A stretch of DNA of 33,917 nt from a virus, in the IMG/VR virus record IMGVR_UViG_3300029267_000869, positions 1-33,917 of that record; one strand, written 5' to 3'. This document shows, piece by piece, positions 1,731 through 32,461 of the stretch. Within the stretch, counting starts at the first letter, position 1. Each line of letters starts with the position of its first letter. The notes beneath the pieces are model-generated. The model was not told the origin of the DNA and did no database searches. It saw only the letters and a program-made list of their open reading frames with translations. Position numbers and translations under genes: made by a program.

Positions 1731-2165
1731 TTATTCAAGCGGTGTCTGCCGGGTGATGGACGGGCGCGGATAGATAACAACCACGCCATTGGTGTCCGTG
1801 AATTTCCATTGAAGAAGGGCCGTCCCGGTGATGTTGGTTGAAGATGGGATGGTGATGTCAACGGTGTAATGGCCACCGGCTTCATTGGTGGACGTGGGGA
1901 CATAAACCACGTTGGAATTGACGTTCCCAACACGCAACTCCATGGTGATGTCCGCAAGGTCTTGGACGTTGCTTGATACGGCGTCAGAATACACGGTCCC
2001 GGATATGGTCAACGTGGTCCCGTCGAAATAAACCCCGGTGAACGCGGCCGGGTTATCCGTCCGGGCTAGGTCATAGTCCTTGGATACCGGGTCAAGTTCT
2101 GCCCCAATTGCCGCCACGCCCATGGCCACAACGGCCGCCATCACTGCAAACCAAACGCGCTTCAT
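1731..2165 (-). CDS. Secreted Ig-like/BppU-N-like protein next to the capsid gene (short paralogue of a fibre N-terminus)
   Basis: The protein has 144 aa and starts at ATG 2165 behind AAAGGGGAACGAT. The first 22 residues form a clear Sec signal peptide: MKR, a hydrophobic core rich in Ala/Val/Met, then an AIGA-like cleavage site before ELDP. The mature part is a beta-rich domain with repeated Thr-Asn and an ending (LLQWKFTDTNGVVVIYPRPS) like the N-terminal domains of baseplate/receptor-binding proteins of the BppU type. Its signal-peptide core MAAVVAM, and 26 bases of coding DNA, are identical to those of the large fibre gene at 23769-25772, whose N-terminal domain looks similar. A signal peptide in a head-cluster gene is unexpected. 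Possible roles are a head fibre, a decoration protein or an exported envelope protein; none is shown. Confidence 0.7.
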   Translation of the reverse strand: MKRVWFAVMAAVVAMGVAAIGAELDPVSKDYDLARTDNPAAFTGVYFDGTTLTISGTVYSDAVSSNVQDLADITMELRVGNVNSNVVYVPTSTNEAGGHYTVDITIPSSTNITGTALLQWKFTDTNGVVVIYPRPSITRQTPLE

Positions 2166-2250: not shown

Positions 2251-2592
2251 CTAATTCAAACGATGCCAAGAAGACGTTGTCACCCCTTCCGACATCCAAA
2301 ACAGGTTGGACACCGTCCCGACAAGCTTGTCACCAATGAAGCGGGGCGTATAAAGGGTTTCATCCGCCACCGTGTTGGTGTCCACCTGGGCCGTCATCAA
2401 TGCCACAAGGCTATTGGACAAGGCCGTCCGGGCCGTGGCATTGGCCGGGCCATCATAGAACGTGGACCCATCCGCAAGGGGGTCATAATCATCAAGGTCC
2501 GCGTGTGCGTTCTGTACTCGGACAACCTGTCCAAGAAGAAGACCGCCCGCCAGAACCGCCAGAACCGCCATGGTTGTGGAAAATTTCCGCAT
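2251..2592 (-). CDS. Short secreted protein homologous to the N-terminus of the LamG fibre protein
   Basis: The protein has 113 aa and starts at ATG 2592 after GGAAGGAAACAC. Residues 1-31 form a signal peptide (MRK, long Ala/Val/Leu/Gly core, AHA cleavage-like site). The mature protein begins DLDDYDPLADGSTFYDG, which aligns by eye with DEYDPNDPGESTYWGG at the mature start of the 523-aa LamG protein at 21853-23424. Both continue with an Ala-Arg-x-x-x-S-N helix. The gene therefore looks like a shortened paralogue of a tail-fibre N-terminal segment, placed directly after the major capsid gene. GC hairpins lie on both sides of it. Function is unknown. Confidence 0.7.
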   Translation of the reverse strand: MRKFSTTMAVLAVLAGGLLLGQVVRVQNAHADLDDYDPLADGSTFYDGPANATARTALSNSLVALMTAQVDTNTVADETLYTPRFIGDKLVGTVSNLFWMSEGVTTSSWHRLN

Positions 2593-2679: not shown

Positions 2680-3807
2680 TTAACCCTGCAATATCACGCC
2701 GCCCACGGGTTGAATGACTTGGCACCCACAGAACACGTCAAACACTACTTGGTCTGACAGGGTGACTGTCGATGAACTAAACGTGGCGCGGACCGATATG
2801 CCGCGATATGATTCCACCGCCGAACCGATACGCAACGGGGTGGGGGCCACGATTGCGCCCGCAACCGCACCCTTGTTATAAATCATATTCTCCGTCACTG
2901 CGGACAGGAACGTCACCGCCGCGCCGTCACCGGCCGCCACAAGGTCCGCGGACACAACCGGCGTGATGCTTACCGTTGCCGCGTTGCCCGTGATACTGGC
3001 GTCTGCCGTCAAGGCATATTCCGTGGTGTCACCCGCAACCGTGAAGGCCGCGCCTTCATACAGGTCACCGGTTGCCGCCGTGAACCCGTCAATGGCCAGT
3101 GTGCTTGCGCCAAGAACCGGGATTCCGTTGGTGAGAACCGTACCGGCAACGTCACCGCGTTCCTGCGTCCCGGAATTGGCATCAACAAACCAGTCAACAC
3201 CATAACGCCGGGTCAAGTAGGCTTCCCGGAGTCCGCGCGTTCCATCCTGCCCGTAATCCGCGGATACAAACTCATTGAGAGCCATGAAGGACGCTTCCGC
3301 CGTGGTCGAAATAAGACCAATGCGGTCCATGGACTTGACCTTGTTGTCCTTCAATATCTTGTTGGCCGCAAGGATGTGGGCCTTGCTTGAAGGCTGCGTC
3401 CCGCGCGTTCCCGCGCAATGGGACGTGAAACCGCGGGCAATCTGTGTGATGAAGTAATCATCAATGGCGTCCATGATTGCATCCATGGCCGGAACCGTCA
3501 CAAGGCGCGTGAAGTCCGACAATTCAAGACTTGACTGCTTGGACGTGATTGTCCCCGTTGCTTCATAGTGGTGTTCAAGCTCAAGGTTGACGCTTGTTTC
3601 CGTGATGTCCTGCGGGGTGGTGGTCCCCGTGAATTCATTGGCCACCAGTATGGGCGGGACCGTCACCGGGACGGTGTCACCGACCTTGGACGCCGTGAAC
3701 ATGCGTTCTTTGTCACGGGTAACAAGGTCACCGGTGATTAGCCGGTCATGCAGCGTGATAGCGGCATCCCGGGCCACCATCGTGGGAGTTATGAATGTGT
3801 TCGCCAT
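2680..3807 (-). CDS. Major capsid protein, P22 coat (gp5)-like
   Basis: The protein has 375 aa. The N-terminus MANTFITPTMVARDAAITLH, followed by a helix, DRLITGDLVTRD and a KVGDTVPVTVPP segment, matches the start of P22-type coat proteins, which fold like the HK97 capsid. A beta-rich stretch at about residues 230-305 (DLYEGAAFTVAGDTTEYALT and following) is likely the inserted domain common in this family. The start is ATG 3807, behind AAGGGAAAGC; the longer form lacks a ribosome-binding site. The gene follows the scaffold gene by 36 bases, as expected. Its codons include more CTG, CAG and GAG than most neighbours, which may reflect high expression or a different history. Confidence 0.85.
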   Translation of the reverse strand: MANTFITPTMVARDAAITLHDRLITGDLVTRDKERMFTASKVGDTVPVTVPPILVANEFTGTTTPQDITETSVNLELEHHYEATGTITSKQSSLELSDFTRLVTVPAMDAIMDAIDDYFITQIARGFTSHCAGTRGTQPSSKAHILAANKILKDNKVKSMDRIGLISTTAEASFMALNEFVSADYGQDGTRGLREAYLTRRYGVDWFVDANSGTQERGDVAGTVLTNGIPVLGASTLAIDGFTAATGDLYEGAAFTVAGDTTEYALTADASITGNAATVSITPVVSADLVAAGDGAAVTFLSAVTENMIYNKGAVAGAIVAPTPLRIGSAVESYRGISVRATFSSSTVTLSDQVVFDVFCGCQVIQPVGGVILQG

Positions 3808-4503: not shown

Positions 4504-4509
4504 TGCCAC

Positions 4510-4581
4510 ACCTTTCAGGCTTTTTCCCGGTTGCCAGAACCGGACGCGGTGTTCAACGCCACACCGCGGAAGGCGTCTTCA
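4510..4581 (-). CDS. Possible 23-aa leader ORF between portal and scaffold
   Basis: An ATG in the portal-scaffold gap opens a frame of 23 codons (MNEDAFRGVALNTASGSGNR and three more residues) using the phage's usual codons (TTG, GAA). It ends just before the scaffold ribosome-binding site. No ribosome-binding site precedes it, and a small hairpin (CCGGTT/AACCGG) lies within it. It could be a translational-coupling peptide or chance. Confidence 0.2.
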
Positions 4582-4590
4582 TTCATAAAG

Positions 4591-4604
4591 GGCCATCAAT
4601 TCAA
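4591..4604 (-). repeat. Conserved spacer TTGAATTGATGGCC, copy 1
   Basis: This 14-base sequence begins at the TGA stop of the portal gene. The same sequence lies right at the stops of three other virion genes (6216, 25793, 32866). Confidence 0.6.
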
Positions 4605-7713: not shown

Positions 7714-8230
7714 CGGGTAACGTGTCCAATACCTTGCGGATGTCAACGGCAATCTTCTTGGGGGCTTCCCACCCTTCAAGCTTGGCCAAGGCCATGATGG
7801 CTTCCCGGGGTGAATGAAGCTTGATTGACGAAACATGACCCACCGGAAGGCCCTTCTTGTCATACCGGAAAAGACAAGACAATTCCTTCACCGCTTCCGG
7901 GTTGGGGATGTCCTTGTTGAAGTTGAAGAACGCCAAACCTTCTTGGTCATGGTCAATGAAGTCCGCCAGCGTGGCGCGGCCCATTCGGGTCAAGGCTTCA
8001 AGGGCTTCTTGACGGCCCATGACATTGGCCCGGGACACCTTTTCTTCAAGCTCTGCAATCCGGGCCACAATTTCCGGGTGGTCCCGTTCAAGCTTGTGGG
8101 CGTTCCGGTCCGCGTTCTTCTCCGGGTTCTTGCCCCCGTAACCCGCCGCCAGATATGCCGCGGTCTTGGACAACTTCTTGAACCGACCTTGGCAGTACGC
8201 TTCCCAACGTGTGTTCTTCAATACCGGCAT
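7652..8230 (-). CDS. terS: Terminase small subunit
   Basis: The protein has 192 aa and starts at ATG 8230 after AAAGGGGTGTTGGCCA. An N-terminal helix-turn-helix (LSKTAAYLAAGYGGKNPEKN, about 20-40) is the usual DNA-recognition domain of Terminase_2-type small subunits. A central helical oligomerisation region (RIAELEEKVSRANVMGRQEA) follows, then an acidic C-terminus (ELEEEGQEDS) that may contact the large subunit. It recognises the packaging site. Its 5' end overlaps the 3' end of the lipoprotein gene by about 143 bases in another frame. Confidence 0.85.
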   Translation of the reverse strand: MPVLKNTRWEAYCQGRFKKLSKTAAYLAAGYGGKNPEKNADRNAHKLERDHPEIVARIAELEEKVSRANVMGRQEALEALTRMGRATLADFIDHDQEGLAFFNFNKDIPNPEAVKELSCLFRYDKKGLPVGHVSSIKLHSPREAIMALAKLEGWEAPKKIAVDIRKVLDTLPDEALEEICSQELEEEGQEDS

Positions 8231-8576
8231 TGGCCAACACCCCTTTCAACAGGGTTGCCGCCTTCTTGTGTTTAACACCTAGCATGGACACAAGACCAAG
8301 CAACAACATGATTGCAACGCCATACCAATGGCGCAGAACGAAAGAACCAATTGCAAGGGGAAGAAGCTTATGGACCCGGTCATCAATCCGGGTGTCAATG
8401 GCAATCGTGCCTTCAAGGCGGGTGTCAATCAACCCGTTGATGAATTCCCGGGATTCCGCGTTCTTCAAGTCCCTTGCACAAACCCGGGCAATGCGCCGGT
8501 CCCGTTCATGTTTAAGGGTTCCGCAACCCGTCAACATCAACGCAACCACAACCAACATTGTCCCGGCCTTGTTCAT
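8088..8576 (-). CDS. Lipoprotein with an extra membrane helix, upstream of terminase
   Basis: The protein has 162 aa. MNKAGTMLVVVALMLTGC is a lipoprotein signal with lipobox LTGC (Cys18). It is followed by a charged helical region and then a second hydrophobic segment (WYGVAIMLLLGLVSMLGV, about residues 88-105). The C-terminal 45 residues, rich in Gly/Glu/Arg, overlap terminase small in another frame and look like non-selected read-through. The lipidated end would sit in the periplasm or at a membrane. Candidate roles are a spanin-like lysis protein or superinfection exclusion. The start was chosen at the lipoprotein Met rather than the longer MIPWPLVKT form. Confidence 0.65.
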   Translation of the reverse strand: MNKAGTMLVVVALMLTGCGTLKHERDRRIARVCARDLKNAESREFINGLIDTRLEGTIAIDTRIDDRVHKLLPLAIGSFVLRHWYGVAIMLLLGLVSMLGVKHKKAATLLKGVLANAGIEEHTLGSVLPRSVQEVVQDRGISGGGLRGQEPGEERGPERPQA

Positions 8577-9042
8577 GGTCTTCACCAAAGGCCACGGAAT
8601 CAATGTTCCGCCATGACTTCATTGTCACGGCATAGGCCAACGCGGGCCATTCCGCGCGCGCCTTTTTCAGCCTGTAGTGGGCCGCCTGAATGGAGATTCC
8701 AAGACGGTCCGCAACGTGGCGCAATGACCGGGTTGGATAGGCAAGACGGTCCAAGACAATTTCCCGGGACCGCGGGGAAAGGGACATCAATGACTTGGCA
8801 ATGTAGGACATGCCCGCAATGACCGGGTCCCCGCCGGTGTCGTGGGGCTTGGTTGGGTCCCCGCCAAACTGGAAGACCCCGGCCGGGTCTTCCGCGCCGT
8901 CATACATGCGGACGTGGGTTCTTCCATGGTGGTTGATGTGGCGGGTGGGGTGACATTCCGCGCAAGGGGTTTGGCCCCATGGGGTTGACCGATAGTCCCC
9001 CCGTTCAATGGCTTCCGCGTGTGGGCATTTGTGGCAGTCCAA
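8512..9042 (-). CDS. Zinc-finger plus helix-turn-helix protein, candidate late-gene regulator
   Basis: The protein has 176 aa and probably starts at TTG 9042, five bases after the HNH stop, with GCGGGGG upstream. N-terminal cysteines (DCHKC about 2-6; CAEC about 27-30) with nearby His could form a zinc site. Residues about 85-135 (SLSPRSREIVLDRLAYPTRS, then a helix LRHVADRLGISIQAAHYRLK) read as a sigma-region-4 or LuxR-like helix-turn-helix. The C-terminus past about 150 overlaps the lipoprotein gene. Position at the early/late boundary, just before terminase, suggests a transcription or packaging regulator; that role is inference. Confidence 0.65.
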   Translation of the reverse strand: MDCHKCPHAEAIERGDYRSTPWGQTPCAECHPTRHINHHGRTHVRMYDGAEDPAGVFQFGGDPTKPHDTGGDPVIAGMSYIAKSLMSLSPRSREIVLDRLAYPTRSLRHVADRLGISIQAAHYRLKKARAEWPALAYAVTMKSWRNIDSVAFGEDHEQGRDNVGCGCVDVDGLRNP

Positions 9043-12285: not shown

Positions 12286-12419
12286 TGCCCGTCCGTCCTT
12301 TCCGTTGTGTGATGACAAGAACACGGGTTCTTGGGGGTGGGACAAATACAGTCCCACACCATCAACCCGATGATGGCCGCCATGATGACGGCAAGGATGA
12401 CATATCCGCGGTCCGGCAT
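12282..12419 (-). CDS. 45-aa membrane protein with Cys-rich tail
   Basis: The start is ATG 12419 in a TAATG overlap with the lipoprotein gene. One hydrophobic helix (GYVILAVIMAAIIGLMVWDC) is followed by a short Cys/His tail (CICPTPKNPCSCHHTTERT). It lies between a lipoprotein gene and a soluble protein gene, so it is part of the operon started by the promoter near 13.0 kb. Confidence 0.55.
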   Translation of the reverse strand: MPDRGYVILAVIMAAIIGLMVWDCICPTPKNPCSCHHTTERTDGQ

Positions 12420-12958
12420 TACCACCACTTTCCTTTGGTGTCCGGGACTTCCAACCGCTTGGCCCCGTCCTTGATTTCCCAATATCGGACCTTGTTGCCC
12501 GGGTCCACAAACAAGGCAAACCAACACCCCTTCCCATATTTCTTGCCGGTCTTCTTGAATCGGTGATGCATCCGGTTCCCGTTGTTCCATTCCGCGGGGA
12601 AATATGACACCTTGGCTTCACGTTGGATGATTTCCCCATCCTTCACCATGACAACCGCGGCCTTGGTGACAGTGTATTCCTTGCAAGCGGATTGGCTTGA
12701 TTTGGTCCGGTATCGGGCCGGGGTGATGCAAACCAACTTCCCGTCATTTTCCGCCTTGGGCTTCCAAAGGAATTGACTAGACCCCGTGTCCGGTTCCGGG
12801 TGTTCACCCGTGTCCGGGTCTTCCGGGACGGGTTGGTCACCGGGTTCCGGTTCCGGCAAGGTGATTGGTCCGTCCCATGGCCATGGGACTTGGGGGAAGG
12901 TGCAACCGGTGATGAAGACCGTGACGGCAAGCAACAAGACAAAGCGGGCTTTGTTCAT
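12419..12958 (-). CDS. Phage lipoprotein with Pro/Asp-rich linker
   Basis: The protein has 179 aa. MNKARFVLLLAVTVFITGC is a lipoprotein signal peptide with lipobox ITGC (Cys19). A flexible Pro/Glu/Asp-rich linker follows (about 30-58), then a beta-rich domain (about 65-179) with two Cys (about 74 and 90) that could form a disulphide. It is the first gene after the promoter at 12993-13022, so it is probably strongly or early expressed. Phage-encoded early lipoproteins often block superinfection (for example T5 Llp); the same role here is inference. Confidence 0.75.
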   Translation of the reverse strand: MNKARFVLLLAVTVFITGCTFPQVPWPWDGPITLPEPEPGDQPVPEDPDTGEHPEPDTGSSQFLWKPKAENDGKLVCITPARYRTKSSQSACKEYTVTKAAVVMVKDGEIIQREAKVSYFPAEWNNGNRMHHRFKKTGKKYGKGCWFALFVDPGNKVRYWEIKDGAKRLEVPDTKGKWW

Positions 12959-13593: not shown

Positions 13594-13943
13594 CACTTCA
13601 TCCCCCTTGGCTTGTATTTCGGACACGTCCCGGGGTGGTTCCGGTTCCCGCAATGGCAACCTTGCGGGACGCCAAAGCGTTCCATGGTGGGCGTGTTCCA
13701 CCACGTCAACCCGTGGGCGGAATCATTACCACAACGCAATTCACCGTGGACGGTTTCTTCCCACACGCAATGGTCATAGGGTTCCGGGACGGGTCCTGCC
13801 CACTGCCCCAACGGGAAGCCCAAGTCCTTCAAGTGGCCTTCGTTGACTATCACCAATCGGGGCGTGGTTGTGGTGTTGACACGGTGCCACCACCAACCCG
13901 GTTGGTCCGGCTTCTTGTCTGACCATTCCCAAGGCGTTATCAA
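13593..13943 (-). CDS. Hypothetical Trp-rich protein with C-terminal Cys/His cluster
   Basis: The protein has about 116 aa. No ATG or GTG fits; a TTG at 13943 overlapping the upstream stop (TTGA) is the best start, with GGAAGG about 13 bases before it. The beginning ITPWEWSDKKPDQPGWWWHR resembles the N-terminus of small phage proteins in which a display-type 'W-x-x-x-x-P-x-x-x-G-x-Y/W' strand occurs. The C-terminus has CHCGNRNHPGTCPKY, a possible zinc site. Confidence 0.6.
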   Translation of the reverse strand: MITPWEWSDKKPDQPGWWWHRVNTTTTPRLVIVNEGHLKDLGFPLGQWAGPVPEPYDHCVWEETVHGELRCGNDSAHGLTWWNTPTMERFGVPQGCHCGNRNHPGTCPKYKPRGMK

Positions 13944-14227
13944 TTTGACACCGCCTTCCCGGGGACGTTGGCCCCAATAGGGTTTGAAGCGGCCTTGGCG
14001 GCCGCGTTGGCTTCCCGGACACCCGACACCACCGCGTTGGCTTCTTGCCAGTGAAGCGATGTCAACCACACCATTGCCCGTTGTTTCAAGGCCGGGTCAT
14101 TACCAAAGACTGCCACTTCACCCGCGGCCACTTGTTCCGGGTCACCCGAACACGCCGCCATCAAGATGATGGCCGCCGTGATGGCCAACCCTTGGCCATT
14201 ACTCATTTTGTGTTCCTTGTCCATCAT
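13940..14227 (-). CDS. Small lipoprotein
   Basis: The protein has up to 95 aa. Two starts are possible: ATG 14227, overlapping the initiator stop with GGAAGG upstream, or the internal ATG seven codons later with its own AAGGA. Either gives a hydrophobic core ending LMAAC, a lipobox. The mature part is Ala/Val-rich and helical (RAMVWLTSLHWQEANAVVSG). It is one of three predicted lipoproteins in this genome. Confidence 0.6.
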   Translation of the reverse strand: MMDKEHKMSNGQGLAITAAIILMAACSGDPEQVAAGEVAVFGNDPALKQRAMVWLTSLHWQEANAVVSGVREANAAAKAASNPIGANVPGKAVSN

Positions 14228-20552: not shown

Positions 20553-21260
20553 CTATGCTTGGGCGTATATCAGGGACGGCGCGTTGTGGGCCGTTCTGGA
20601 AGCTTGTTCCGCCAAATAGGCCCGGGCGGCGTCAAAGATGCCGACTTGACCGGCCGGGGCCACGTCATCCAAGACGTTGCGGGTTCCAATCTCAAGGTAT
20701 CGGACAACGGGGGACAACCGCTTCCCGGGGATGCCGGGGTCCGCCAACCACCAAAGGAACGCGGCAAACTCGGAACACGTCATGGCGTCCGGGGTCCGCA
20801 ACCATGGCAGGGACCCGCCGCCCCACACGGACCGCTTGAAATTGTGCCACAACTGCAACTTGGCATAGGGGACATTTCCCACCATGGCCTTGGCGGCCGC
20901 ATACACGCCACGGCAAACACAAGGCGGATAAGGCAAGGTCAAACAATTGTATTCGCGCCGGGCGGGGTTCTTCTTCTTCCAATTGACGATTTCCACAAAG
21001 GGGATTGGGCCTTGGGTTCCGTTCTTCTTGCTTTCCGGGTGGGGCTTGAACCACTGTTCAAAATACACCCGCGCGCCTTGCGGGACATCGGGGTCACAAT
21101 CCACGCCGTCAAAGAACCACGCGGAATGGTTAAAGGGTGCCATGCGGAAGAACCCGCGGCCGGTGACGGCCCGGATTCCCCAAGCGTGGAAATTGTCCAA
21201 TGACACTTCCCGGGACACCGTTGACATCAACCCCATGGACATTGGGGGTTGTGGGGTCAT
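20553..21260 (-). CDS. YiiX-like permuted papain-fold enzyme, candidate endolysin
   Basis: The protein has 235 aa and starts at ATG 21260 in an ATGA overlap with the holin-like gene. FNHSAWFFDG (His45) comes before IPFVEIVNW (Glu90) and TCSEFAAFLW (Cys162). His first and Cys in a T-C-S-E helix is the order of permuted NlpC/P60 (YiiX/YebB-type) enzymes, which act as peptidases or amidases. No other muralytic gene is visible in the genome and this one closes the late region after a membrane protein, so an endolysin role is reasonable. YiiX-like enzymes can also act on lipid or protein amides, so this is not certain. Confidence 0.65.
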   Translation of the reverse strand: MTPQPPMSMGLMSTVSREVSLDNFHAWGIRAVTGRGFFRMAPFNHSAWFFDGVDCDPDVPQGARVYFEQWFKPHPESKKNGTQGPIPFVEIVNWKKKNPARREYNCLTLPYPPCVCRGVYAAAKAMVGNVPYAKLQLWHNFKRSVWGGGSLPWLRTPDAMTCSEFAAFLWWLADPGIPGKRLSPVVRYLEIGTRNVLDDVAPAGQVGIFDAARAYLAEQASRTAHNAPSLIYAQA

Positions 21261-21538
21261 TGGCCAAGCCAAGGGATGTCAACGCCATTCATCTTGGCCA
21301 GTATGAGACAACACAAGACCAGACACACGCCAAGGATGGCGGCCGGGGATGTCTTGGCGATTTGGAGAAGAAGCCCGGGCCATGTGGTGGTCAAGTCAAG
21401 GCGGCGGATTATCCAGATAAGGGCTTCCGAATGGATGACACAAAGGTCATCAAGGTGGTTGCCTTCCACACGGGCTTGCATCTTCTTGATAAGGTCTTCC
21501 GCTTCCCACTGGTCCGGCGTCTTGGTCATGGCCCCCAT
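21257..21538 (-). CDS. Holin-like membrane protein
   Basis: The protein has 93 aa with ATG 21538 after AAGGGGGGATC. A charged helical N-terminal region (QWEAEDLIKKMQARVEGNHL) is followed by one long hydrophobic segment near the C-terminus (PAAILGVCLVLCCLILAKM, about 65-83). Size, single helix and position directly before the enzyme gene fit a holin or a tail-anchored lysis regulator. It could instead be a tail or envelope accessory protein. Confidence 0.55.
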   Translation of the reverse strand: MGAMTKTPDQWEAEDLIKKMQARVEGNHLDDLCVIHSEALIWIIRRLDLTTTWPGLLLQIAKTSPAAILGVCLVLCCLILAKMNGVDIPWLGQ

Positions 21539-21557
21539 GATCCCCCCTTGGTGTCCG

Positions 21558-21842
21558 TCAAAGGTCCTTGAAGTAATCCCGGACCAATACGGACATGATT
21601 GCTTGTTCCTTCTTCAAGTAAACCCGAACATCTGCCATCCCTCGGATGTCATCCACGGTGGCCGGGTCCAAATACCATTCAACATCCGCCTTCATGTCCC
21701 GCATGTCCGCGGTGTTCTGGACACGTTCCGGGTTGTCAATTCGGACGGGCTTGGCATCCGCGTCCGGCATGATGACGCCATGAAGGAATGTTCCAATAAT
21801 GCAACCGGCAAAAAAGATGGCAACGGCCTTTGTGATGTTCAT
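21558..21842 (-). CDS. Membrane-anchored small protein (spanin-like position)
   Basis: The protein has 94 aa and starts at ATG 21842 behind AAAGGGGAAGAC. One N-terminal helix (AVAIFFAGCIIGTFLHGVIM) works as a signal anchor; FAGC could also be a weak lipobox. The rest is a soluble helical domain (TADMRDMKADVEWYLDPATV; VRVYLKKEQAIMSVLVRDYF) on the periplasmic side. It sits in the lysis cluster and could be an inner-membrane spanin subunit. No partner o-spanin is visible next to it. Confidence 0.55.
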   Translation of the reverse strand: MNITKAVAIFFAGCIIGTFLHGVIMPDADAKPVRIDNPERVQNTADMRDMKADVEWYLDPATVDDIRGMADVRVYLKKEQAIMSVLVRDYFKDL

Positions 21843-21852
21843 GTCTTCCCCT

Positions 21853-23424
21853 TTATTTCCAATGAATGGCCCCGGCGTTCAACGCGCCTTGGGTCCCGTT
21901 GGTGGCGTTGACCTTCCAACGCATGTTGGTCCCGGACCCGGCAAGGGTGTTGGTTCCTGCCCACACCGACTTCCCCGGGGTATATGTCCCCACGTCTTCA
22001 AGCGTTACGGCAACCCAATTGGTCCCGTCGTCCTTGGTGGCAAACGCCTTCACATCATCATTGATGACGTTGGGCGTGACGCCGGTGTCTTCCACCACAA
22101 GCAACACCTTGGCCATGGCCGGTTCCGATACGGCCGGGAACGATGTGGACACCAATGACATGGAATAGTCCGTCACAATCTCCGTGTTGGTTTCTGTCCC
22201 GGACCCGGAATTATAGACAAGGTCCTGCAACGCCGGGTCAAGGTATCCGTCCCACAACATGACCATGTCAATTGCGCCGTGGTAGTCTTCACCGGCCCCG
22301 GCGGATTGTGACCACCCAAGCATGTTAGTCACACCGGACACCCGCAACGGGACGGCCGGGGCGGACCCACCCACGGACCCAAAATTCCCATCAACCTTGG
22401 TGAAGATGTTGGTGCCATCAAAACCAAACATGATGTTATGCCATGCGTTGTCTTCCATATCAATGTTGTATTCCGACCATTGCGCGTTGTTGTTGGCGTC
22501 CCACTGCCAAAAGGTGGTCTTGTTGGCGGAATAACTATACTGCAAGATGTTGTCCCGTTGCGCCCCGCCATTGTCCCGGGACTGAATTGCCACCGTCCCG
22601 GAATAAGACGGATCAAGCTTCACCCACAAGGACCCGGTCCACGCGCCGGTGGGTGATACCGCGGCATCCTTCCCCCAAGACATGGAATCATCATCCGTGA
22701 AATACAAGGCCCCATTGACAAGGCCGTTGGTTGCCATGGCGTCCGTGTTCTTGCTTGCCACACCATTGGACGCCGCAATGGCATCAACAACCGCCGGGGA
22801 TGCGCCATCGTCGTTCATCTTGAACCACCGATAAGCATTATTGGCAATTGCCTGGTCCGTGTATGACCACAAAAAAGCGTCATCCCCCGCGGAATAAAGG
22901 CCGCCCGTTGTCAAAACTCCGTCAATGCCGCTTTCATCTTGGAACCCGTCCGCGTACCCGTCCACCATGGTTTGGGCGGACACCGCGTTCAAGGCTTCAA
23001 TCCAAAAGCGGTTGATGGTGATGTTGTTTTCATTGCGGTCCGCCAGAACGGCCGCCCCGGCCGCGGTGGCGGCGTTACTGTCCACCCCGCCTTCAATGGC
23101 TTGGATGGTGTTGGTGTCCACGGAATTCAAAAGGTTGGTGTCACCGTCCGCGGATATGAAAAGGAATTGATTGGATTGCGCGCCGGGCAGGATAGAAGAC
23201 CCGTCCGCAAACCGGACGCCATTGGAAGGGTCAACCACGGGATTGGAGACAAGGCCGTCCACGATGTCAATAATGGCGTTGGATTGCGCGCGCCGGGCTT
23301 CCACATCGGTGGCCCCGCCCCAATAGGTGGATTCACCGGGGTCATTGGGGTCATATTCATCAAGGCCATGGGCCACAAGAACGGACAGAGCAACAAAACA
23401 ACAAGCAACAATTACACGGCGCAT
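21853..23424 (-). CDS. Secreted LamG-domain tail-fibre protein
   Basis: The protein has 523 aa. Residues 1-20 form a signal peptide (MRR, hydrophobic core, VAHG before LDEYDP). The next 40 residues match the short gene at 2251-2592. A LamG/concanavalin-like jellyroll lies at about 245-400: GAWTGSLWVKLDPSYSGTVA, DNAWHNIMFGFDGTNIFTKV, and AIDMVMLWDGYLDPALQDLV. The C-terminus (DVKAFATKDDGTNWVAVTLE through MRWKVNATNGTQG and an ending IHWK) has the form of a widespread phage-fibre C-terminal module. Jellyrolls of this kind bind glycans, so it is probably a receptor-binding protein. The signal peptide is unexplained. Confidence 0.75.
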   Translation of the reverse strand: MRRVIVACCFVALSVLVAHGLDEYDPNDPGESTYWGGATDVEARRAQSNAIIDIVDGLVSNPVVDPSNGVRFADGSSILPGAQSNQFLFISADGDTNLLNSVDTNTIQAIEGGVDSNAATAAGAAVLADRNENNITINRFWIEALNAVSAQTMVDGYADGFQDESGIDGVLTTGGLYSAGDDAFLWSYTDQAIANNAYRWFKMNDDGASPAVVDAIAASNGVASKNTDAMATNGLVNGALYFTDDDSMSWGKDAAVSPTGAWTGSLWVKLDPSYSGTVAIQSRDNGGAQRDNILQYSYSANKTTFWQWDANNNAQWSEYNIDMEDNAWHNIMFGFDGTNIFTKVDGNFGSVGGSAPAVPLRVSGVTNMLGWSQSAGAGEDYHGAIDMVMLWDGYLDPALQDLVYNSGSGTETNTEIVTDYSMSLVSTSFPAVSEPAMAKVLLVVEDTGVTPNVINDDVKAFATKDDGTNWVAVTLEDVGTYTPGKSVWAGTNTLAGSGTNMRWKVNATNGTQGALNAGAIHWK

Positions 23425-23435
23425 GGTCTTCCCTT

Positions 23436-23756
23436 TCAGTCCCTTGGAATCAATCCCAAGAATTTGGCAATAGCGTCAATCTTTTCTTGAAGTTGACCGG
23501 CCGCGGAAAAGTCCGCCTTGTCTTCCGCCATGGCGTCCCGCTTGGCCGCTTGCCGGGCGCGCCGGGTGTCCATGTCAACTTCCGGGCTTGCCGACACTTC
23601 AACAGTTGAAAGGTTGCCGTCATTGTCCACCAAAATCAAATGGCGGTGGCCGTCCGGGGATTGCACGATTGGCCCGCGGTCCGGGCCTTCAAGTTCCAAA
23701 TCCGCATCCGCCATAAGAAGACGCCGGTTCATGGTCAACCCAATATTATTTGACAT
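23436..23756 (-). CDS. Small tail-region protein with C-terminal coiled coil
   Basis: The protein has 106 aa and no signal peptide. The N-terminus is beta-rich (HRHLILVDNDGNLSTVEVSA). The C-terminal helix (AAGQLQEKIDAIAKFLGLIP) has a heptad pattern and could trimerise. It sits between two secreted fibre genes and may be a fibre chaperone or connector. AAAAGGGGAACACC precedes its ATG. Confidence 0.6.
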   Translation of the reverse strand: MSNNIGLTMNRRLLMADADLELEGPDRGPIVQSPDGHRHLILVDNDGNLSTVEVSASPEVDMDTRRARQAAKRDAMAEDKADFSAAGQLQEKIDAIAKFLGLIPRD

Positions 23757-23768
23757 GGTGTTCCCCTT

Positions 23769-25772
23769 TTATGGTTCCACAAAAGTGGCGGTAATACTTG
23801 CCGCGTATAGCGCGCCGGTTTTATCAAGCCCGTCAATGGACCAAAGCCATTCAAAGGTTTCTGGCGTTCCGTTGGTTGCCTGTATTTCCATCATGGGCGG
23901 CGTGTCCCGGAACCACTTGGCCCAGGACAACCCGCCGTCATCAATTTCAATCCCAATGGCCGTTCCGTTGCGGGCCAGATAGTTGGTGTAAAGGATGGGC
24001 GGAAAAGTCCAATATTGGGCATTAAACACCCCGCCCACTTCAATCTGGTAAGTCCCCGTCCGGTTGGGCGTGAAGGTCAACACCGCGTTGGTGGTCCACG
24101 GTTGGGCGTCGTCCAACGCTTGGATGGTTCCGTCATAGTAGGACCAAATGGATTGCAATGTCTCGGACGCCACGGACAGGTTGGGCGTTGACAACCGGGT
24201 GTCCCTGTCTGCCGTCCCGCCTTCAATGGTCAACGTGGCGGACGCCCCGCCGTCGCGGACGCCATAAGCCTTGACGCCAAGGAACCAACCCGCGGCGAAC
24301 GGTGTACCTGTTGACATGTGGACATGTGTGTCCACCGGGGCAATACTGCCATTGACGCCTTGGGCGGAAGACACGCCAAGGACATTGGTGGACACGCCGT
24401 CCGATGCAATCAGTTCAAAGAAGGTTGACACCGCCGGGCCACCGGCCCCGGAAAAGCTTGCCCAATACCACCCATTGAATGTTCCGGCCGGGACAAGGGT
24501 GTCAACTTCGTTGGTATAATACCACGTCCCAAGAAGATTGGTCCCAACTGCCAAGGCCGTTTCATTGGTCCACACTTCCCCGGGCAACGCATCCCAAAGG
24601 GAAGCCCCGTCCAAAGACGGATGGTCATTGGTTGCCCCAAACAAGGTTTGGGCGGACACGCTTTCAATCAATTCCACCGTCCGGCCAAAGGTGACAAATT
24701 CTTCCGCCGCGTAAACGCTTGCGGTTGAAGACCGGGTCACCGTGTTGAAGCTTGGGTCATCCCCTTCTTGGACCGCGGACGCGGCCTTGGCAACAGTGTC
24801 CGTATAAGTGGCATCGGTGTCCGGGACAAAGGCCGCAATCCGGGCCGCCGTGACGTGTTGGGTGCCAAGGTAAAGTGAAGACTCGTCAAGGTAAAGGTTG
24901 GCAAAAGGCAAGTCCGCCCGGCCAAGTGTGACGGTGTTGGATGCGTTGGGGATGACATCCCAATGAACGGTGATTGGGTCACCCCAAGCCAAGGCCACGT
25001 TGCCCGTGGCGTCCCGCAATTCCCGGGCGTTCCATTCCACGGAATCCACGCCCGATTGGTCCCGCATCAACGTCAACAGGTTGTCCAAGACAATGATATT
25101 GGTGTCAAAGTAGTATCGGGAATTGACAAAGTCCACGGACGGCCCGTCATAGAAGGCGTCTTTGTAATACAGAATCCCGTTGGTTTCCCAAACAAGGTTG
25201 GGGGTTATCCACCACGGCCCCACGTTGGTTTGACCCTGCAACCCACCGTCGAACATGCCAAGCATGTCCAACGTGCCATCCCGGCGAACATACGCGTTGG
25301 GGTCAATGACAATGAAGCCCGCGCCCATGGAACCCGGGGACGGTGTCAATTCAAATTGGCCGGGTCCCCACTGCCATACGCGGGGGATGCCATCCACATT
25401 GGCTTTGACCAAGACTTGGCCCCACAAGACGCCATTGGTTGCCGTGTTGGTGGCCGCAAAATCGAAATATAGAACGCCAAGGGTGGTGTCCACGTTGGTG
25501 GTGACAACGGGCGGGGTCACCCAACCGTTGGTGGGGTTTTCTGCCAAGTAAAATTCCCCCGTGTAGCCCGCCACGTTGGTGTAGGACACGCCGTCGTTGA
25601 GAAGGTACGCCGCCACCCGGGGCGTTGTCCCCGCCGCGGCCCGGACATAAAATTCCCGCTGTTGGTCCGTGAAGTCCAACCGGATGGGGATTTCCGGGAT
25701 TCCTTGACCGGATGCCGTGGACGCCAAAATCATGGCCACAACGGCCGCCATCACTGAACGCTTGCAAGTCAT
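23769..25772 (-). CDS. Secreted tail-fibre/baseplate-type protein
   Basis: The protein has 667 aa. The first 22 residues are a signal peptide (core MAAVVAMILAS, cut near ASG). The N-terminal domain (RLDFTDQQREFYVRAAAGTT; YLLNDGVSYTNVAGYTGEFY) resembles BppU-type baseplate N-termini. The middle has the fibre motif VTLGRADLPFANLYLDESSL followed by YLGTQHVTAARIAAFV. The C-terminal half is beta-rich with many Thr-Asn pairs and a predicted sandwich domain. It is probably part of the host-recognition apparatus. Its signal sequence is nearly the same as that of the short gene at 1731-2165. Confidence 0.7.
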   Translation of the reverse strand: MTCKRSVMAAVVAMILASTASGQGIPEIPIRLDFTDQQREFYVRAAAGTTPRVAAYLLNDGVSYTNVAGYTGEFYLAENPTNGWVTPPVVTTNVDTTLGVLYFDFAATNTATNGVLWGQVLVKANVDGIPRVWQWGPGQFELTPSPGSMGAGFIVIDPNAYVRRDGTLDMLGMFDGGLQGQTNVGPWWITPNLVWETNGILYYKDAFYDGPSVDFVNSRYYFDTNIIVLDNLLTLMRDQSGVDSVEWNARELRDATGNVALAWGDPITVHWDVIPNASNTVTLGRADLPFANLYLDESSLYLGTQHVTAARIAAFVPDTDATYTDTVAKAASAVQEGDDPSFNTVTRSSTASVYAAEEFVTFGRTVELIESVSAQTLFGATNDHPSLDGASLWDALPGEVWTNETALAVGTNLLGTWYYTNEVDTLVPAGTFNGWYWASFSGAGGPAVSTFFELIASDGVSTNVLGVSSAQGVNGSIAPVDTHVHMSTGTPFAAGWFLGVKAYGVRDGGASATLTIEGGTADRDTRLSTPNLSVASETLQSIWSYYDGTIQALDDAQPWTTNAVLTFTPNRTGTYQIEVGGVFNAQYWTFPPILYTNYLARNGTAIGIEIDDGGLSWAKWFRDTPPMMEIQATNGTPETFEWLWSIDGLDKTGALYAASITATFVEP

Positions 25773-25792
25773 AGGTGTCCCCTTTCACACAA

Positions 25793-25806
25793 GGCCATCA
25801 ATTCAA
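25793..25806 (-). repeat. Conserved spacer TTGAATTGATGGCC, copy 3
   Basis: It starts immediately after the stop of the 760-aa gene and leads into TTGTGTGAAAGGGG, the ribosome-binding site of the next gene. The 32866 copy shares this extension almost exactly. Confidence 0.65.
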
Positions 25807-28086
25807 TCACCAAACCCACTTGAGCAAACAACGCCCGCCGGGCTGCAATGCCCACCCTTTCCGCCATGACATGGAATAGGGCGGCGGGCTTGAAGACTCG
25901 AAACCGGGCCAATCAATGTCATCAACATCCGTTCCCGTCCCGGGACCGGCGTATTGCTTGAAGCCTTCCACCATCCCCGGTGGCATACCGCCCCCGGCCG
26001 GGTCAAACTCGGACATCAATGTCCCGCCGGGATTGTAAAGCTTTCCCTTGGGCGTGGTGGCGGAGATATACAAATCCGCGGCCACCGCGGGCGCGGTCAA
26101 TCCAACCTTTTCCCGGGCTTGACTGTAAAAGAAGGGCTTGGTTGTCAACCGTCCGCTTCCGCGGCCAATTTCCACCCACGGAACCGCGGCCCCAAAGGAC
26201 GCCGTCCCTGCACTAATACCATGGGACCCGGGGGATATTGACCCGGTCCACTTCCAATCACGTCCGCCTTCAAAGACTGTGCCGGTGGTGGTGATGGACC
26301 AAGCCCCGGACGCCGTTGGATAAGGCGGCCCGGGCGGGTCATCCTTGGGGACTGTCACGGGATAAGACACGGACCCACCAAATTCATCACTTATGACATA
26401 ATTGGCATTGATGGGGTTGACCGGGTCCTTGTTGGTGACACTGTATCCGCCGGACGCCGTGACAGTGAATTGGTATTCCCACGGCATTTCATTGGTCAAG
26501 GTCATGACGGACTTGACCGTCTTGCTTGCATCGGTGGCCAATGGTGTGGTGGACACATAAGGCGTTGCGCCCGCGGTTTCAATCACTTCGTAGGGCCAAT
26601 AAGCGGCGGTGTCGTATCGGTGCCAATCCGCCACCGCGGCGGCATACCCGAACCCTTCCCCTTCCCATGCGCCAATGTTGGCCCCGTTGGTTGGGTCAAG
26701 GCTCACTTGCCAATCCGTCCAATCAAGAAGGTTCAACATATCATACCGGTCCTTGAACATTTCTTGGAACCCCACATGGGACACTTGGGCAATCCCTTTC
26801 CCGGGCTTGCCGTACCACATCAAGTTGGTGTGCATCACACGCACCACGTCCCGGGCATTGGTGGCCGGGGCCGGATAAATGGTCATATTGGTAATGGCCA
26901 CCCAAAGACGGCCAAGGGATTGGGTGGTCCCCGGGGTGATGGTCAAGACTTCCGGCGTGGTCGGTAGGATGGCCCCAGGGATGTCAAATTCAACCACGTC
27001 CCAAGCGGACGTCATCCACCGGCCCTCACGGCCTTCAATCGTCACCGTGTAGGTGGTGGCGGCCAAGGGATTGGTGGCGTTGTTGGTGTTGCCATGCCAA
27101 CACATGATGGCCGGGGTTTGATATTGCGGGGACTGCCACGATGGGAACCGGCCCACGGACCCGGGGTCATACATAAAGAACGGCATTGGTGAATTGGTGA
27201 TCCACGCCACGGATTGGTTGGACACCGCGGCCGCGGGGTTGGTAACGGCCAACGCCATTTCACACATGATGAAGTCTTGTCCGGTTTCAAAGTACGAAAA
27301 CCACCCGGACTTGGCCTTCTCCGGGCCGAATTGCGCCACCGGGTTGACATCCCACGGAATCCCGTAGACATCCCAAAGGTTGGTGGCAAACCCCCGGCCA
27401 AGGTGTTGCACCAAGGACCCTTGACACCACCGGGGCAACCATTCGGGGTAGTTGGTCACATAAGTTGGCCCGGGGTTGGTGTATATCAACGGCCGGGTGA
27501 ACCAATCATTGAAGTCCGCTTCCAATTCCTTGGCCACAAAGATGCGGACCGGCGCGCCTTCCCGGAAGTCATCTTCATCAACATAAAGGACGTTTTGGTC
27601 AATCTCGGACAGTAGTTCCCGGGGAAGGTTCCCCACGATTCCCCAAGCGTTGGACGTTCCGCCGCCGGGCAACGGGAACGAATAGGGAAAGGGGTTTGTC
27701 CATATCAAGGGTTCATTGGTCAACACCCCGGACGGGTACTGTAAAAGATACGCCGTTTGAACGTGGGTGGTGTGAACCGGGACGGTCACATCAAAGTTGG
27801 TCAGAATCAATGAAGCGTTGGTGGGGTTGGTTACTATCACCGTGTAAGACGTGAACCCGGCCAAGACTTCCGCTTGCAAGGACAACACGCCATTGAAGGG
27901 TTGTCCGGCATCCCTGCCCACATTGACCTTGAACCCCGCTTGTTCCCACATTTGGGACGTGACGCCTTGGGATTCAAATGCCGCCCATGGGACCCCGGAC
28001 GTGAAGACAAGGTCACCCCACGGGACGGCGGCCGCCGCCACCGTGGACATCATGGACACCGCCAGAATGGCCAAGGATTTCCGCAT
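25807..28086 (-). CDS. Large secreted Thr-Asn-rich tail protein
   Basis: The protein has about 759 aa. The start is ATG 28086 or GTG 28089, overlapping the upstream stop. Residues 1-20 form a signal peptide (MRKSLAILAVSMMSTVAAAA). The mature part is almost all beta, with frequent T-N pairs (TNPTNASLILTNFDVTVPVH) and aromatic-rich loops. No family is recognised. The C-terminus (SMSWRKGWALQPGGRCLLKW) ends in a Trp-rich strand. It is probably an adhesin or part of the tail tip, judging by size and position after the tape measure and two small tail genes. Confidence 0.65.
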   Translation of the reverse strand: MRKSLAILAVSMMSTVAAAAVPWGDLVFTSGVPWAAFESQGVTSQMWEQAGFKVNVGRDAGQPFNGVLSLQAEVLAGFTSYTVIVTNPTNASLILTNFDVTVPVHTTHVQTAYLLQYPSGVLTNEPLIWTNPFPYSFPLPGGGTSNAWGIVGNLPRELLSEIDQNVLYVDEDDFREGAPVRIFVAKELEADFNDWFTRPLIYTNPGPTYVTNYPEWLPRWCQGSLVQHLGRGFATNLWDVYGIPWDVNPVAQFGPEKAKSGWFSYFETGQDFIMCEMALAVTNPAAAVSNQSVAWITNSPMPFFMYDPGSVGRFPSWQSPQYQTPAIMCWHGNTNNATNPLAATTYTVTIEGREGRWMTSAWDVVEFDIPGAILPTTPEVLTITPGTTQSLGRLWVAITNMTIYPAPATNARDVVRVMHTNLMWYGKPGKGIAQVSHVGFQEMFKDRYDMLNLLDWTDWQVSLDPTNGANIGAWEGEGFGYAAAVADWHRYDTAAYWPYEVIETAGATPYVSTTPLATDASKTVKSVMTLTNEMPWEYQFTVTASGGYSVTNKDPVNPINANYVISDEFGGSVSYPVTVPKDDPPGPPYPTASGAWSITTTGTVFEGGRDWKWTGSISPGSHGISAGTASFGAAVPWVEIGRGSGRLTTKPFFYSQAREKVGLTAPAVAADLYISATTPKGKLYNPGGTLMSEFDPAGGGMPPGMVEGFKQYAGPGTGTDVDDIDWPGFESSSPPPYSMSWRKGWALQPGGRCLLKWVW

Positions 28087-28643
28087 CACATCCCCATGAC
28101 AATTTCAATGTCCCCAAGGTGGTGGACCCAATAAGGCGTGAACACGCCCCCGGTTGGTGTGCCGTCACTGACAAACTGATAACACCGCAAAGGCCGCCGG
28201 TAAATGGTTGCGTCCGCCGTGGGGCAGTCATCCACAAAGTCCGCCCCCGCTTGGACCATGATGCCGCGGTCATCATGGTTGCCCCAATGCATGAAGGCAC
28301 ACACCCACACAAACGGGCCGCCTTCAATCTTGATGGCGTCATCCGCGGTGACTTCCGGGATGTGATAGGGGTTGACCGTTGCCCCGGGGTAATGGATGAA
28401 GCCTTGTTGGACCAACGCATTGTTGCCACTGTCCTTGGTCACCCGGAAGGAATCCGCCCCGCCGGTACTGGCCAAGCCCGAACCATCCACCACAAGGCCG
28501 CGACGATCAACCCGGACGGAGATGCCGCCTTCACCCCGGGCGTTGTTGAGCATGTTGGCAACTTGCCGATTTTCCCGGGCGGACGGTCGGTCACCCTTCC
28601 GCCGGTTGGGCTGCATGAACCGGCCGCGTGTCTTTGTGGTCAT
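28086..28643 (-). CDS. Tail-region hypothetical protein
   Basis: The protein has 185 aa. A basic disordered N-terminus (MTTKTRGRFMQPNRRKGDRP) with a QVANMLNNARGEGGISVRVD segment is followed by a beta-rich domain (GGPFVWVCAFMHWGNHDDRG). The layout (short helix, Gly-rich turn, strands) is seen in small tail-tip proteins of other phages that sit before fibre genes. It has no signal peptide, unlike its downstream neighbour. It ends in an overlap with the 760-aa gene. Confidence 0.6.
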   Translation of the reverse strand: MTTKTRGRFMQPNRRKGDRPSARENRQVANMLNNARGEGGISVRVDRRGLVVDGSGLASTGGADSFRVTKDSGNNALVQQGFIHYPGATVNPYHIPEVTADDAIKIEGGPFVWVCAFMHWGNHDDRGIMVQAGADFVDDCPTADATIYRRPLRCYQFVSDGTPTGGVFTPYWVHHLGDIEIVMGM

Positions 28644-28646
28644 GGC

Positions 28647-28991
28647 CTACCCCCATTCCCAAGAAGCGGGCGCGGGTTCCCATGTGGTGTACATTTCCCA
28701 TTGTTGGGTCCGCTGCAACCAGTCCGTTGGTTCTTCCGCCGGGTGGGTGGAATCTTGGACGCAAATATATTTGGGCGTTACCCCCAACCCAACAAGACCC
28801 TTGATGATACTGATGTCCCCCACGGAATAAGACACCGTGGCGGACGCTTGGCCAACGGCCGTTCCCACGCCCAACGGCCGTTCATGCCGCCAACGCACCA
28901 CTGTCCAATGGTGGCGGATTTCAATGCCTTCATCCGTTTCCCGGATGTCCAAATTGTCTTCTTGGCTTTCTAACACCCAAACATACGCCAC
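28647..28991 (-). CDS. Small tail-region hypothetical protein
   Basis: The protein has 114 aa, beta-rich and Trp-rich (HHWTVVRWRHERPLG; DWLQRTQQWEMYTTWEPAPA). It starts 13 bases after the tape measure stop with GGGGGTGACCCGTGGCGT region upstream. It likely belongs to the distal tail or tail tip. No family recognised. Confidence 0.6.
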   Translation of the reverse strand: MAYVWVLESQEDNLDIRETDEGIEIRHHWTVVRWRHERPLGVGTAVGQASATVSYSVGDISIIKGLVGLGVTPKYICVQDSTHPAEEPTDWLQRTQQWEMYTTWEPAPASWEWG

Positions 28992-29004: not shown

Positions 29005-31008
29005 TCAATCCGTCATCCCGGTTGGCTTTTGCTCGATCCTGTAAAGGATTTCCGCCGCCCGGGCAGTGTTTTCCTTGATGGCCAATTCATTCTTGTTGGC
29101 CCCGTCCCGGGCTTGGCCCGTCAACTTGGTGAACAGTTCAGACAAGGACAAGGACCGGGCAAATTGCTTCCCGGCCGCCCGTTGCAAGTCCGCCAATTCT
29201 TCGATTGCGCCCACGATTTCCCCGGCCTTTTCCGCCCGCTTCTTGGGGTCCGCTTCCGTGTCCAACTCGGATTCAAGACGCCGGATGTGGTCTTCTTGGG
29301 CCGTCATTTGTTCTTCCGGCTTCATGGCCTTCATCCGCATCTTCCGCAAGCGGTCTTCAAGGCGGCCCCGGATTTTGGCGGCGTCTTCTTCCGCCTTCTT
29401 GCGGTCTTCCCGGGCCTTCTTTTCCATCTTGGGGACAAGCTTGCCAACCTTGTCCACCACCTTTTCAAACTCGGTCAAGGTCAAGTCGCCAATGTCCTTG
29501 CCCATGTCTTCCAAGACTTTTTCCAACGCCTTCTTGCCGGTATCTGTCCCCGTGACGCCTTCAAGCTTTTCTTGGGCTTGCGCCCGCCGCTTGTCTTCCG
29601 CCGCTTGTAGGTCCTTGCGTTCATTGACCCGGGCAAGTAAATCATCCACGGCCTTCTTGGCTTCCGCTTCCGCTTCCCGTTCCTTGCGGGCCGCGGTTTC
29701 TTCCGGGGTTTCCTTGATGTCTTCCCGCTTCACCAAGTCCCGGATTGCTTCCAAGCCGCGTTCAAGTTGGTCCGCCCCGGTTCCGCTGCCGAACCGTTCA
29801 GACAATGCCGCGCCTTCTTGCCGCAAGCGTTCCCCGCGGATGCGTTCTTCTTCTTCATCAATGCGCCGGTCCCGTTCCGCCTTGGACATCGGGTCACCGG
29901 CAAGCTTCCGTTGCCGGGCTTGTTCCTTCACGATGTCCTTGGCCACGGACCGTTCCCCGGTCCGGGTCATAGCGGACTCGGCCGCCCGGCCAATGGCATC
30001 ACCAACGGCCGGGGCAATCTTCAAGAGTAGTTGTCCGGCCTTTTCCGCGCCAATCCGCAACGCGCCAATGACGATGTCCGCCAAGCCTTGAAGGGCTTGC
30101 GCCCGGCCTTCCCCGGACGCAAGGGCGTTGGCAACGGCCGCCGCAACGTCAAGGGCTTCTTTGGCCTTGTTGGCCCATGCTTCAATGGTCCCGTCTTCCC
30201 GTAACCGGCCAAGCCAATTGATTAATTCCCGGATGGCGTTCTTGGCGTCTTCCATGAAGACTTGGCCAAAGTCCCGCAACGCAAGGTTCACGTTGTCTTT
30301 CAGCGTCGAGACAAGACCTTCACCGGTGGATGACAGTTCTTTCATGCCCCCGGCAAACTTATCCAAGGACCCGCGCAACGCGGCCCATATTTGGACGGAT
30401 GACGCGCCTTCCTTCTGTAACTTCTCCAACTGCCCCCGGGCTTCACCGGTCAACAATCCTAGTTCCTGCAAGCGTTGGGCCGCTTCCCCAAACGGCCGCC
30501 CGGCCTTCAATGCGGAGTAGGCCCGGCCCACCCACATTGACACGTCCGAAATACCCGCCCCGGCAACGGCCGCGGCGTCACCAAGAAGACGCAAGGTTGC
30601 TTGGGTGTTCAACACCCCGTCCGTGAAGACTTGAAGAAGGCGGGACGCTTCCGCAATGTCCGCCAGTTGGAAAGGCGTGGCCGCTGAGAAGGCGGCAAGG
30701 TCCGCCATGTGAGCCTTGGCCCGTTCAAGGCTTCCAAAAAGGACCTTGAATTGCGCTTCCATGCGTTCAAAGGCAAACGCCTTGGAAATGGTTGTCCACA
30801 ACGCCACCGCCCCGGCGGACACCACCCCGGCAAGACGCAAGAAGCCCCGCGTGATACCTTGGAAGACTCGGGCAACACCCCGGCCAATGGAGTTCAACCC
30901 CTTCATCACGCCGCCCAAACGCTTCAACGCCTTGGTGGCGGCGTTGACGCCGCGGGCAACCAATGACTTGGCCATGATCGAAAATGAGAGTTTACGCGCG
31001 CCGGGCAT
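29005..31008 (-). CDS. Tape measure protein
   Basis: The protein has about 667 aa. ATG 31008 is preferred to a TTG two codons earlier. The N-terminal 190 residues show the tape-measure domain: hydrophobic and Gly-rich segments, then FERMEAQFKVLFGSLERAKA, the AAFSAATPFQLADIAEASRL motif and a Gly/Ala-rich VWVGRAYSALKAG-like segment. The rest is a long Lys/Glu/Arg-rich coiled coil (about 370-620). The tape measure sets tail length; at roughly 0.15 nm per residue it predicts a tail near 100 nm, so a siphovirus. The strong coiled coil rules out a membrane-transport protein. Confidence 0.88.
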   Translation of the reverse strand: MPGARKLSFSIMAKSLVARGVNAATKALKRLGGVMKGLNSIGRGVARVFQGITRGFLRLAGVVSAGAVALWTTISKAFAFERMEAQFKVLFGSLERAKAHMADLAAFSAATPFQLADIAEASRLLQVFTDGVLNTQATLRLLGDAAAVAGAGISDVSMWVGRAYSALKAGRPFGEAAQRLQELGLLTGEARGQLEKLQKEGASSVQIWAALRGSLDKFAGGMKELSSTGEGLVSTLKDNVNLALRDFGQVFMEDAKNAIRELINWLGRLREDGTIEAWANKAKEALDVAAAVANALASGEGRAQALQGLADIVIGALRIGAEKAGQLLLKIAPAVGDAIGRAAESAMTRTGERSVAKDIVKEQARQRKLAGDPMSKAERDRRIDEEEERIRGERLRQEGAALSERFGSGTGADQLERGLEAIRDLVKREDIKETPEETAARKEREAEAEAKKAVDDLLARVNERKDLQAAEDKRRAQAQEKLEGVTGTDTGKKALEKVLEDMGKDIGDLTLTEFEKVVDKVGKLVPKMEKKAREDRKKAEEDAAKIRGRLEDRLRKMRMKAMKPEEQMTAQEDHIRRLESELDTEADPKKRAEKAGEIVGAIEELADLQRAAGKQFARSLSLSELFTKLTGQARDGANKNELAIKENTARAAEILYRIEQKPTGMTD

Positions 31009-31801: not shown

Positions 31802-32461
31802 TTAAATGGCGTCAAGATACCGCCACCAACTTGCGGCGTAGGTGGTCCAACTGTCCCGGCCTTCCCGGGTGTCAGAATCCGTCAACCGGGCGTCCCCGGG
31901 CAGGGTAATTGTCGCATAGGCTTCACCGGTGACTTCTTGCTTGAAGCCATAATGGTATATGCCCGCGGTTTCAAAGTCGCCACTGGTTTCATGCATGGCT
32001 TCCGCCGTCAACATGGAGATTGAAACCCCGGTGGAAATGAATGAAGACGCGGAAGTCATCCCGAATTTTTCCACCACACCGAACCCGCCACCAATGCCAA
32101 GGGTGACGCTTGCCGGGTAAGCCTTAATCATGCCCGCGGCGGATGGCTTGATGGCCGTGACGCTTGCGGTGGGGTATCCATCGGAAGACGTGGACGCGGA
32201 AAACGATGTCACCAGATACGCGCTATTCAGCAACGCGCCAAAGGGGACCGTCAGGGTTCCCACGCGCAGTTCATAACTGACGGACCATTCTTCAATGGGC
32301 CGCAAGTTGACCACCGCGTCTTCAATATATTTGGCGTTACCCGCCAAGACTTCCACTTGTTCCCGCCGTGGTCCGCCCACGATGTCGGTGACAACAATGC
32401 CATCATCATCAATGACGCCAAGCCCAAAAGGGTCCGCAGTCTGGGTAGCAAAATCAACCAT
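31802..32461 (-). CDS. Major tail tube protein
   Basis: The protein has 219 aa, almost all beta. It begins VDFATQTADPFGLGVIDDDG and contains an AFGALLNSAYLV-like stretch and a GYPTASVTAIKPSA motif typical of tail tube proteins, where an S/D-x-x-G-Y-P-x-x-x-V strand is frequent. Position (before chaperone and tape measure) fits exactly. The tube protein forms stacked hexamers around the tape measure. AAAGGTGTGAATC lies before ATG 32461. Confidence 0.7.
   Translation of the reverse strand: MVDFATQTADPFGLGVIDDDGIVVTDIVGGPRREQVEVLAGNAKYIEDAVVNLRPIEEWSVSYELRVGTLTVPFGALLNSAYLVTSFSASTSSDGYPTASVTAIKPSAAGMIKAYPASVTLGIGGGFGVVEKFGMTSASSFISTGVSISMLTAEAMHETSGDFETAGIYHYGFKQEVTGEAYATITLPGDARLTDSDTREGRDSWTTYAASWWRYLDAI

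Follow-up and report, generated by a model that had tools for sequence, protein, structure and literature searches.

In the window (33,917 bases, an entire IMG/VR virus record), three late genes in the position of tail fibres encode proteins that begin with a predicted Sec signal peptide (SP). Ten or more phage loci, mostly in Kiritimatiellia-type assemblies, have SP-bearing genes in the fibre region, so the trait is not a quirk of a single contig. We tentatively favour the reading, at a probability of roughly 0.4, that distal adhesins of these phages are exported through Sec and dock onto the virions at lysis. Judged from the sequences, export of the SP proteins through Sec is likely. Given export, the odds that they join the virion are about even, a view that draws on a docking-type fold in one of them and on the absence of other receptor-binding candidates.

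All features of the structural modules and of the presumed lysis region given below lie on the minus strand. In the head module, genes for small and large terminase (phrog_38) are followed by portal (phrog_145), a scaffold-like gene and the major capsid gene (2680..3807; phrog_283, E 4e-50), then by two small genes and a minor head gene (phrog_4611) that is truncated by the contig end. At the opposite contig end, connector (phrog_5) and tail genes precede the tape measure gene (29005..31008; phrog_973) and two small tail-tip genes, encoding tail-region proteins of 114 aa (28647..28991) and 185 aa (28086..28643). Next come the genes of P0001, P0002 and P0003, with that of a 106 aa protein (23436..23756) between the last two, and finally the presumed lysis region (20553..21842). 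The latter encodes a 221 aa protein and two small membrane proteins; it was assigned by position and hydrophobic segments only, and a family search with its proteins gave zero matches. Comparison with the related genome G004 suggests that the genome is near-complete, circularly permuted and broken within the minor head gene. A second contig of the same phage (IMGVR_UViG_3300017987_000655, 11.8 kb, with a 100% identical TerL) overlaps the left part of the window. Outside the structural modules there are three small lipoprotein-like genes, at 12419-12958, at 13940-14227 and in the 8512-9042 region (3258-3743 in the second contig), each with a hydrophobic N-terminus, a lipobox-like cysteine and zero family matches. 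Searches of viral contigs with P0002 and with gene 31802-32461 were unproductive, as was one with A3.

Signal peptides were called with a simple n/h/c rule that combines a basic n-region, a hydrophobic core and small residues at -3 and -1. It recognised 23 of 25 E. coli signal peptides and let through 1.3% of shuffled N-termini and two of 192 spurious ORFs. The preliminary description had assigned Sec-type N-termini to three ORFs, at 25807-28086, 23769-25772 and 21853-23424. Their coordinates and strand proved exact, and their products, P0001, P0002 and P0003, all pass the rule, far above shuffles (shuffling the N-terminus of each SP protein gave pass rates of 1.4-3.7%). Its list was incomplete, however, as the products of 1731-2165 and 2251-2592 are also positive, which brings the SP-positive proteins of the structural modules to five. 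TerL, portal, major capsid protein and tape measure protein are negative by the same rule, and the 185, 114 and 106 aa proteins carry no signal. The region that separates the tape measure gene from the presumed lysis genes encodes three proteins of at least 200 aa. All three are SP-positive, so that no SP-free candidate receptor-binding protein of this size is left there.

Since the rule is simple, one might suspect misplaced starts or N-termini that are hydrophobic by chance, but such an artefact is very improbable and largely refuted. Ribosome sites of the GAAAGGGG/GAAAGGG type stand just upstream of P0002 and P0003, as at other genes of this phage, and the start of P0001 lies at the stop of the preceding gene. 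The starts can be extended upstream in frame by one codon at most. The low shuffle rates and the recurrence in relatives likewise argue against chance.

The three proteins differ in what can be said of their mature parts; their cleavage sites were placed by eye. P0001 (759 aa, 25807..28086), encoded directly after the tape measure and two small tail genes, has a predicted signal peptide at about residues 1-20 (28027..28086), with the cut between MRKSLAILAVSMMSTVAAAA and VPW. No domain or family matches its mature part. A search of viral contigs gave no homologue and the class genomes yielded one weak match, while the AlphaFold model, with a mean pLDDT of 30, was unusable.

P0002 (667 aa, 23769..25772) combines a predicted signal peptide with a BppU-like docking domain. 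The signal peptide, called by the n/h/c rule and in keeping with the pair comparison, spans about residues 1-22 (25707..25772), and the N-terminus reads MTCKRSVMAAVVAMILASTASG before the cut and QG after it. Residues 25-144 (25341..25700) correspond to a BppU-like beta-sandwich, placed at residues 27-144 in the predicted structure, a model with a pLDDT of 70-85 based on an alignment of four sequences only. Its best solved matches are BppU of Lactococcus phage TP901-1, followed by other phage baseplate and neck proteins; the top PDB matches, 4v96 and 3uh8, have Foldseek E values of 3e-4 to 8.5e-4, and the VIA Z scores are 6.6-7.2, against 7.6-8.0 for other baseplate and neck proteins. The fold comparison thus agrees with the BppU-like N-terminus proposed earlier, BppU being the top solved structure, but the Pfam BppU profile does not match, and hence we call P0002 BppU-like rather than a BppU member. 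Through BppU, receptor-binding proteins are attached to the Dit core (PMC3893620). TP901-1 BppU (ORF48) and BppU-domain fibres have the same fold as the first mature domain of P0002, but in TP901-1 BppU the domain starts at residue 1 without a signal peptide, whereas in P0002 about 22 signal residues stand ahead of it. Residue 25 of the P0002 model aligns with residue 1 of BppU, which indicates that a signal peptide has been added ahead of a docking-type domain. The preliminary description had offered three options, namely display on the infected cell, joining of the virion outside, and retention of the hydrophobic N-terminus for assembly. Among these, the docking-type fold directly behind the signal favours joining the virion outside.

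P0003 (523 aa, 21853..23424) has a predicted signal peptide at about residues 1-20 by the n/h/c rule (23365..23424; cut between MRRVIVACCFVALSVLVAHG and LDE). The LamG domain claimed for it is clearly present at residues 245-397 (22234..22692), with a Pfam E value of 8.6e-12 and a Laminin_G_3 / LamG score of 45.9 bits against a gathering score of 27.6. Its C-terminus is of phage type: residues 422-507 (21904..22161) are common to Rhizobium phage lectin proteins (E 2e-5), and the matched Rhizobium phage protein is encoded shortly before lysozyme and holin. None of the three window proteins has a PHROG match. The earlier view of all three as phage fibres is supported for P0002 and P0003, whereas for P0001, which lacks a domain or family match, it follows from gene position alone.

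The two additional SP-positive proteins belong to the head module. One has 144 aa (1731..2165) and is encoded between the capsid and minor head genes; the other has 113 aa (2251..2592), and its mature start resembles that of P0003. The segments behind the two signals, that of 2251-2592 and that of P0003, are 38% identical over 52 residues (E 4e-5 in a small set compared). SP genes likewise lie directly after the capsid position in G004, L003 and L107. The products of 1731-2165 and 2251-2592 could be exported capsid decorations.

Terminase relatives were found in assemblies of Verrucomicrobia, Lentisphaerae and Kiritimatiellae, which suggests that the host of the phage belongs to a lineage of this type. 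Three of the genomes with related phages (G009, G004 and G010) share a class, as class-level searches around each drew overlapping genome samples, and their phage regions have SP genes at late positions, in numbers from one to several. Two proteins, P0004 and L070, are homologues of the first domain of P0002, each with an SP directly ahead of the domain. The SP-bearing proteins P0008, P0006, L070 and P0005 match PHROG tail-fibre families, with E values down to 4e-30. P0008 also matches annotated Synechococcus phage fibres; the WGDHAxAGY-type repeats of the Synechococcus myovirus tail fibres are shaft motifs common to both, but those fibres have no signal peptide. Among fibre or neighbouring proteins of Synechococcus, Limnohabitans and Rhizobium phages, none of 12 had an SP. 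A control with phrog_8147 in Alphaproteobacteria returned, besides G005 itself, a single match that lay outside the shaft motif, and hence provides no frequency control; G005 is labelled Alphaproteobacteria, and its phage contig may be mis-binned. L047 was excluded as possibly a host locus. Five further candidates (L105, L108, L113, L115 and L117) were excluded because they are probably surface proteins of the host, with a tail-like motif as the sole similarity.

Several side observations were made in these relatives. In L070 (7899-10256, minus strand), an SP and a BppU-like fibre homologue are followed at the C-terminal end by BspA-type leucine-rich repeats (Pfam LRR_5, E 3e-10). Near its P0004-like fibre, the phage region L069 encodes a lipoprotein (4281-5024, minus strand) with a CxxC thioredoxin-like motif, for which Pfam Thioredoxin_7 stayed below the cut-off; this lipoprotein gives a weak hint of periplasmic folding. 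A podovirus-like prophage group (G008:C1 and G009:C129; L023-L026) has very long ORFs behind its tail genes, of 4,280 and 3,845 aa.

Export need not lead to the virion. The SP proteins might instead act on the infected cell or on its debris, where they would cover receptors, block superinfection or keep debris from capturing progeny. The lack of C-terminal anchors in proteins with signal peptides is in line with such a role (a C-terminal membrane segment was looked for in the SP fibres of the window and none was seen), as are the domains of adhesin type, LamG in P0003 and the leucine-rich repeats in L070. A tail adhesin of a Streptococcus pneumoniae prophage, PblB, for which a signal peptide is predicted, reportedly takes part in bacterial adhesion (PMC4508584). 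Yet a role at the cell surface would need neither the virion-docking fold of P0002 nor the fibre-shaft motifs of the relatives, and it would leave the phage without a visible receptor-binding protein. We consider it unlikely, at roughly one chance in five.

A second objection to docking after export comes from SP-like segments that lie inside proteins. In some relatives (L032/L033, with L032 at 6725-8854, and L041 at 562-1908), an adaptor-like N-terminal domain and a fibre are fused in one ORF with an SP-like segment at the junction, while L014/L015 encodes the same parts as two overlapping genes. Internal SP-like segments also stand behind an N-terminal domain in L045, L046 and L051. L045 has no SP at its N-terminus but an SP-like segment at residue 99, and shares a 426-residue fibre tip (65% identity) with L049, a protein of 1042 aa that does have an SP. 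The segments in L045, L046, L051 and L041, and the borderline one in L032, are each preceded by a positively charged stretch. A scan detected internal segments in four of eight fibres without N-terminal SP versus 11 of 263 other proteins. Internal translation starts were considered unlikely, because the internal ATGs of L032 and L041 have no clear ribosome site and the nearest in-frame ATG in L045/L046 lies about 25 codons before the segment. Across the relatives, then, the SP-like segment, whether N-terminal or internal, tends to precede the distal fibre. An export signal for the part that follows would be placed in this way, and a role in assembly is also possible. Three fibres (L109, L112 and L114) have no such segment, N-terminal or internal, so export is not required for every fibre in these hosts.

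The internal segments in L032/L033, L041, L045, L046 and L051 are unexplained by plain export, and they keep viable the idea that the hydrophobic segment serves assembly. The segment would then not, or not mainly, be an export signal, and would be retained for fibre assembly or trimerisation, or hold the protein at the inner membrane during tail building. The enrichment of internal segments and the existence of both fused and split forms of one architecture speak for this idea, but tens of proteins have the basic n-region and the small-residue cleavage pattern, and conventional fibres with the same shaft motifs do without the segment. Moreover, one would expect conservation of a structural peg. 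Of eight homologous pairs, however, six show an SP that has kept its pattern but diverged more than the 60 residues behind it; one pair was near equal and one reversed. Retention seems to us about as probable as a role at the cell surface.

The genes could also be lysogenic-conversion cargo in the late region that gives the host new surface adhesins. Lom of lambdoid phages is encoded by such an SP cargo gene inside the tail-fibre region and is an outer-membrane protein of lysogens. Although the location is similar, Lom is not a fibre and has no docking or shaft domain; the BppU-like and LamG domains found here are of a different type. Three consecutive genes in the receptor-binding position, a docking fold and fibre motifs that recur in many loci are also hard to reconcile with cargo, and the window proteins tested, a subset of the genes, gave no integrase family match. 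We regard this explanation as improbable.

Signal peptides on virion proteins have precedents outside the tailed phages. The coat proteins pIII and pVIII of filamentous phages have cleaved signal peptides, and these virions are extruded through the envelope without lysis; the phage of the window differs in being a tailed dsDNA phage. The nearest published case that we found is the predicted signal peptide of PblB (PMC4508584), likened here by description; PblB is a single protein of a Gram-positive prophage, whereas here the trait recurs in many fibre genes and a head gene. The parts are known, but in the literature searched, which left most subscription papers outside its scope and hence gives weak evidence of absence, we saw neither a phage group in which they recur together nor an account of signal peptides as a repeated feature of tailed-phage fibres.

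In textbook tailed phages the virion is complete before lysis. In the export-and-docking scheme that we favour, capsid, tail tube and tail-tip core would be assembled in the cytoplasm from proteins without signals, while the host Sec pathway would export the distal receptor-binding proteins along with two head-associated ones and signal peptidase would cut off the signals. At lysis, once the membranes are open, the mature adhesins waiting outside would dock on the released virions, P0002 through its BppU-like domain, which would be its new N-terminus after cleavage. Extended to the tailed phages of Kiritimatiellia and their kin, such two-compartment assembly, with Sec-translocated fibres and a capsid-associated protein and a virion completed at lysis, is a slightly more tentative proposal still. 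If the fibres are export-tagged, either the last assembly step takes place outside the cytoplasm or fibres have a second role at the cell surface. Annotators normally set SP genes aside as host proteins; if the proposal is true, the search for receptor-binding proteins in metagenomes would change.
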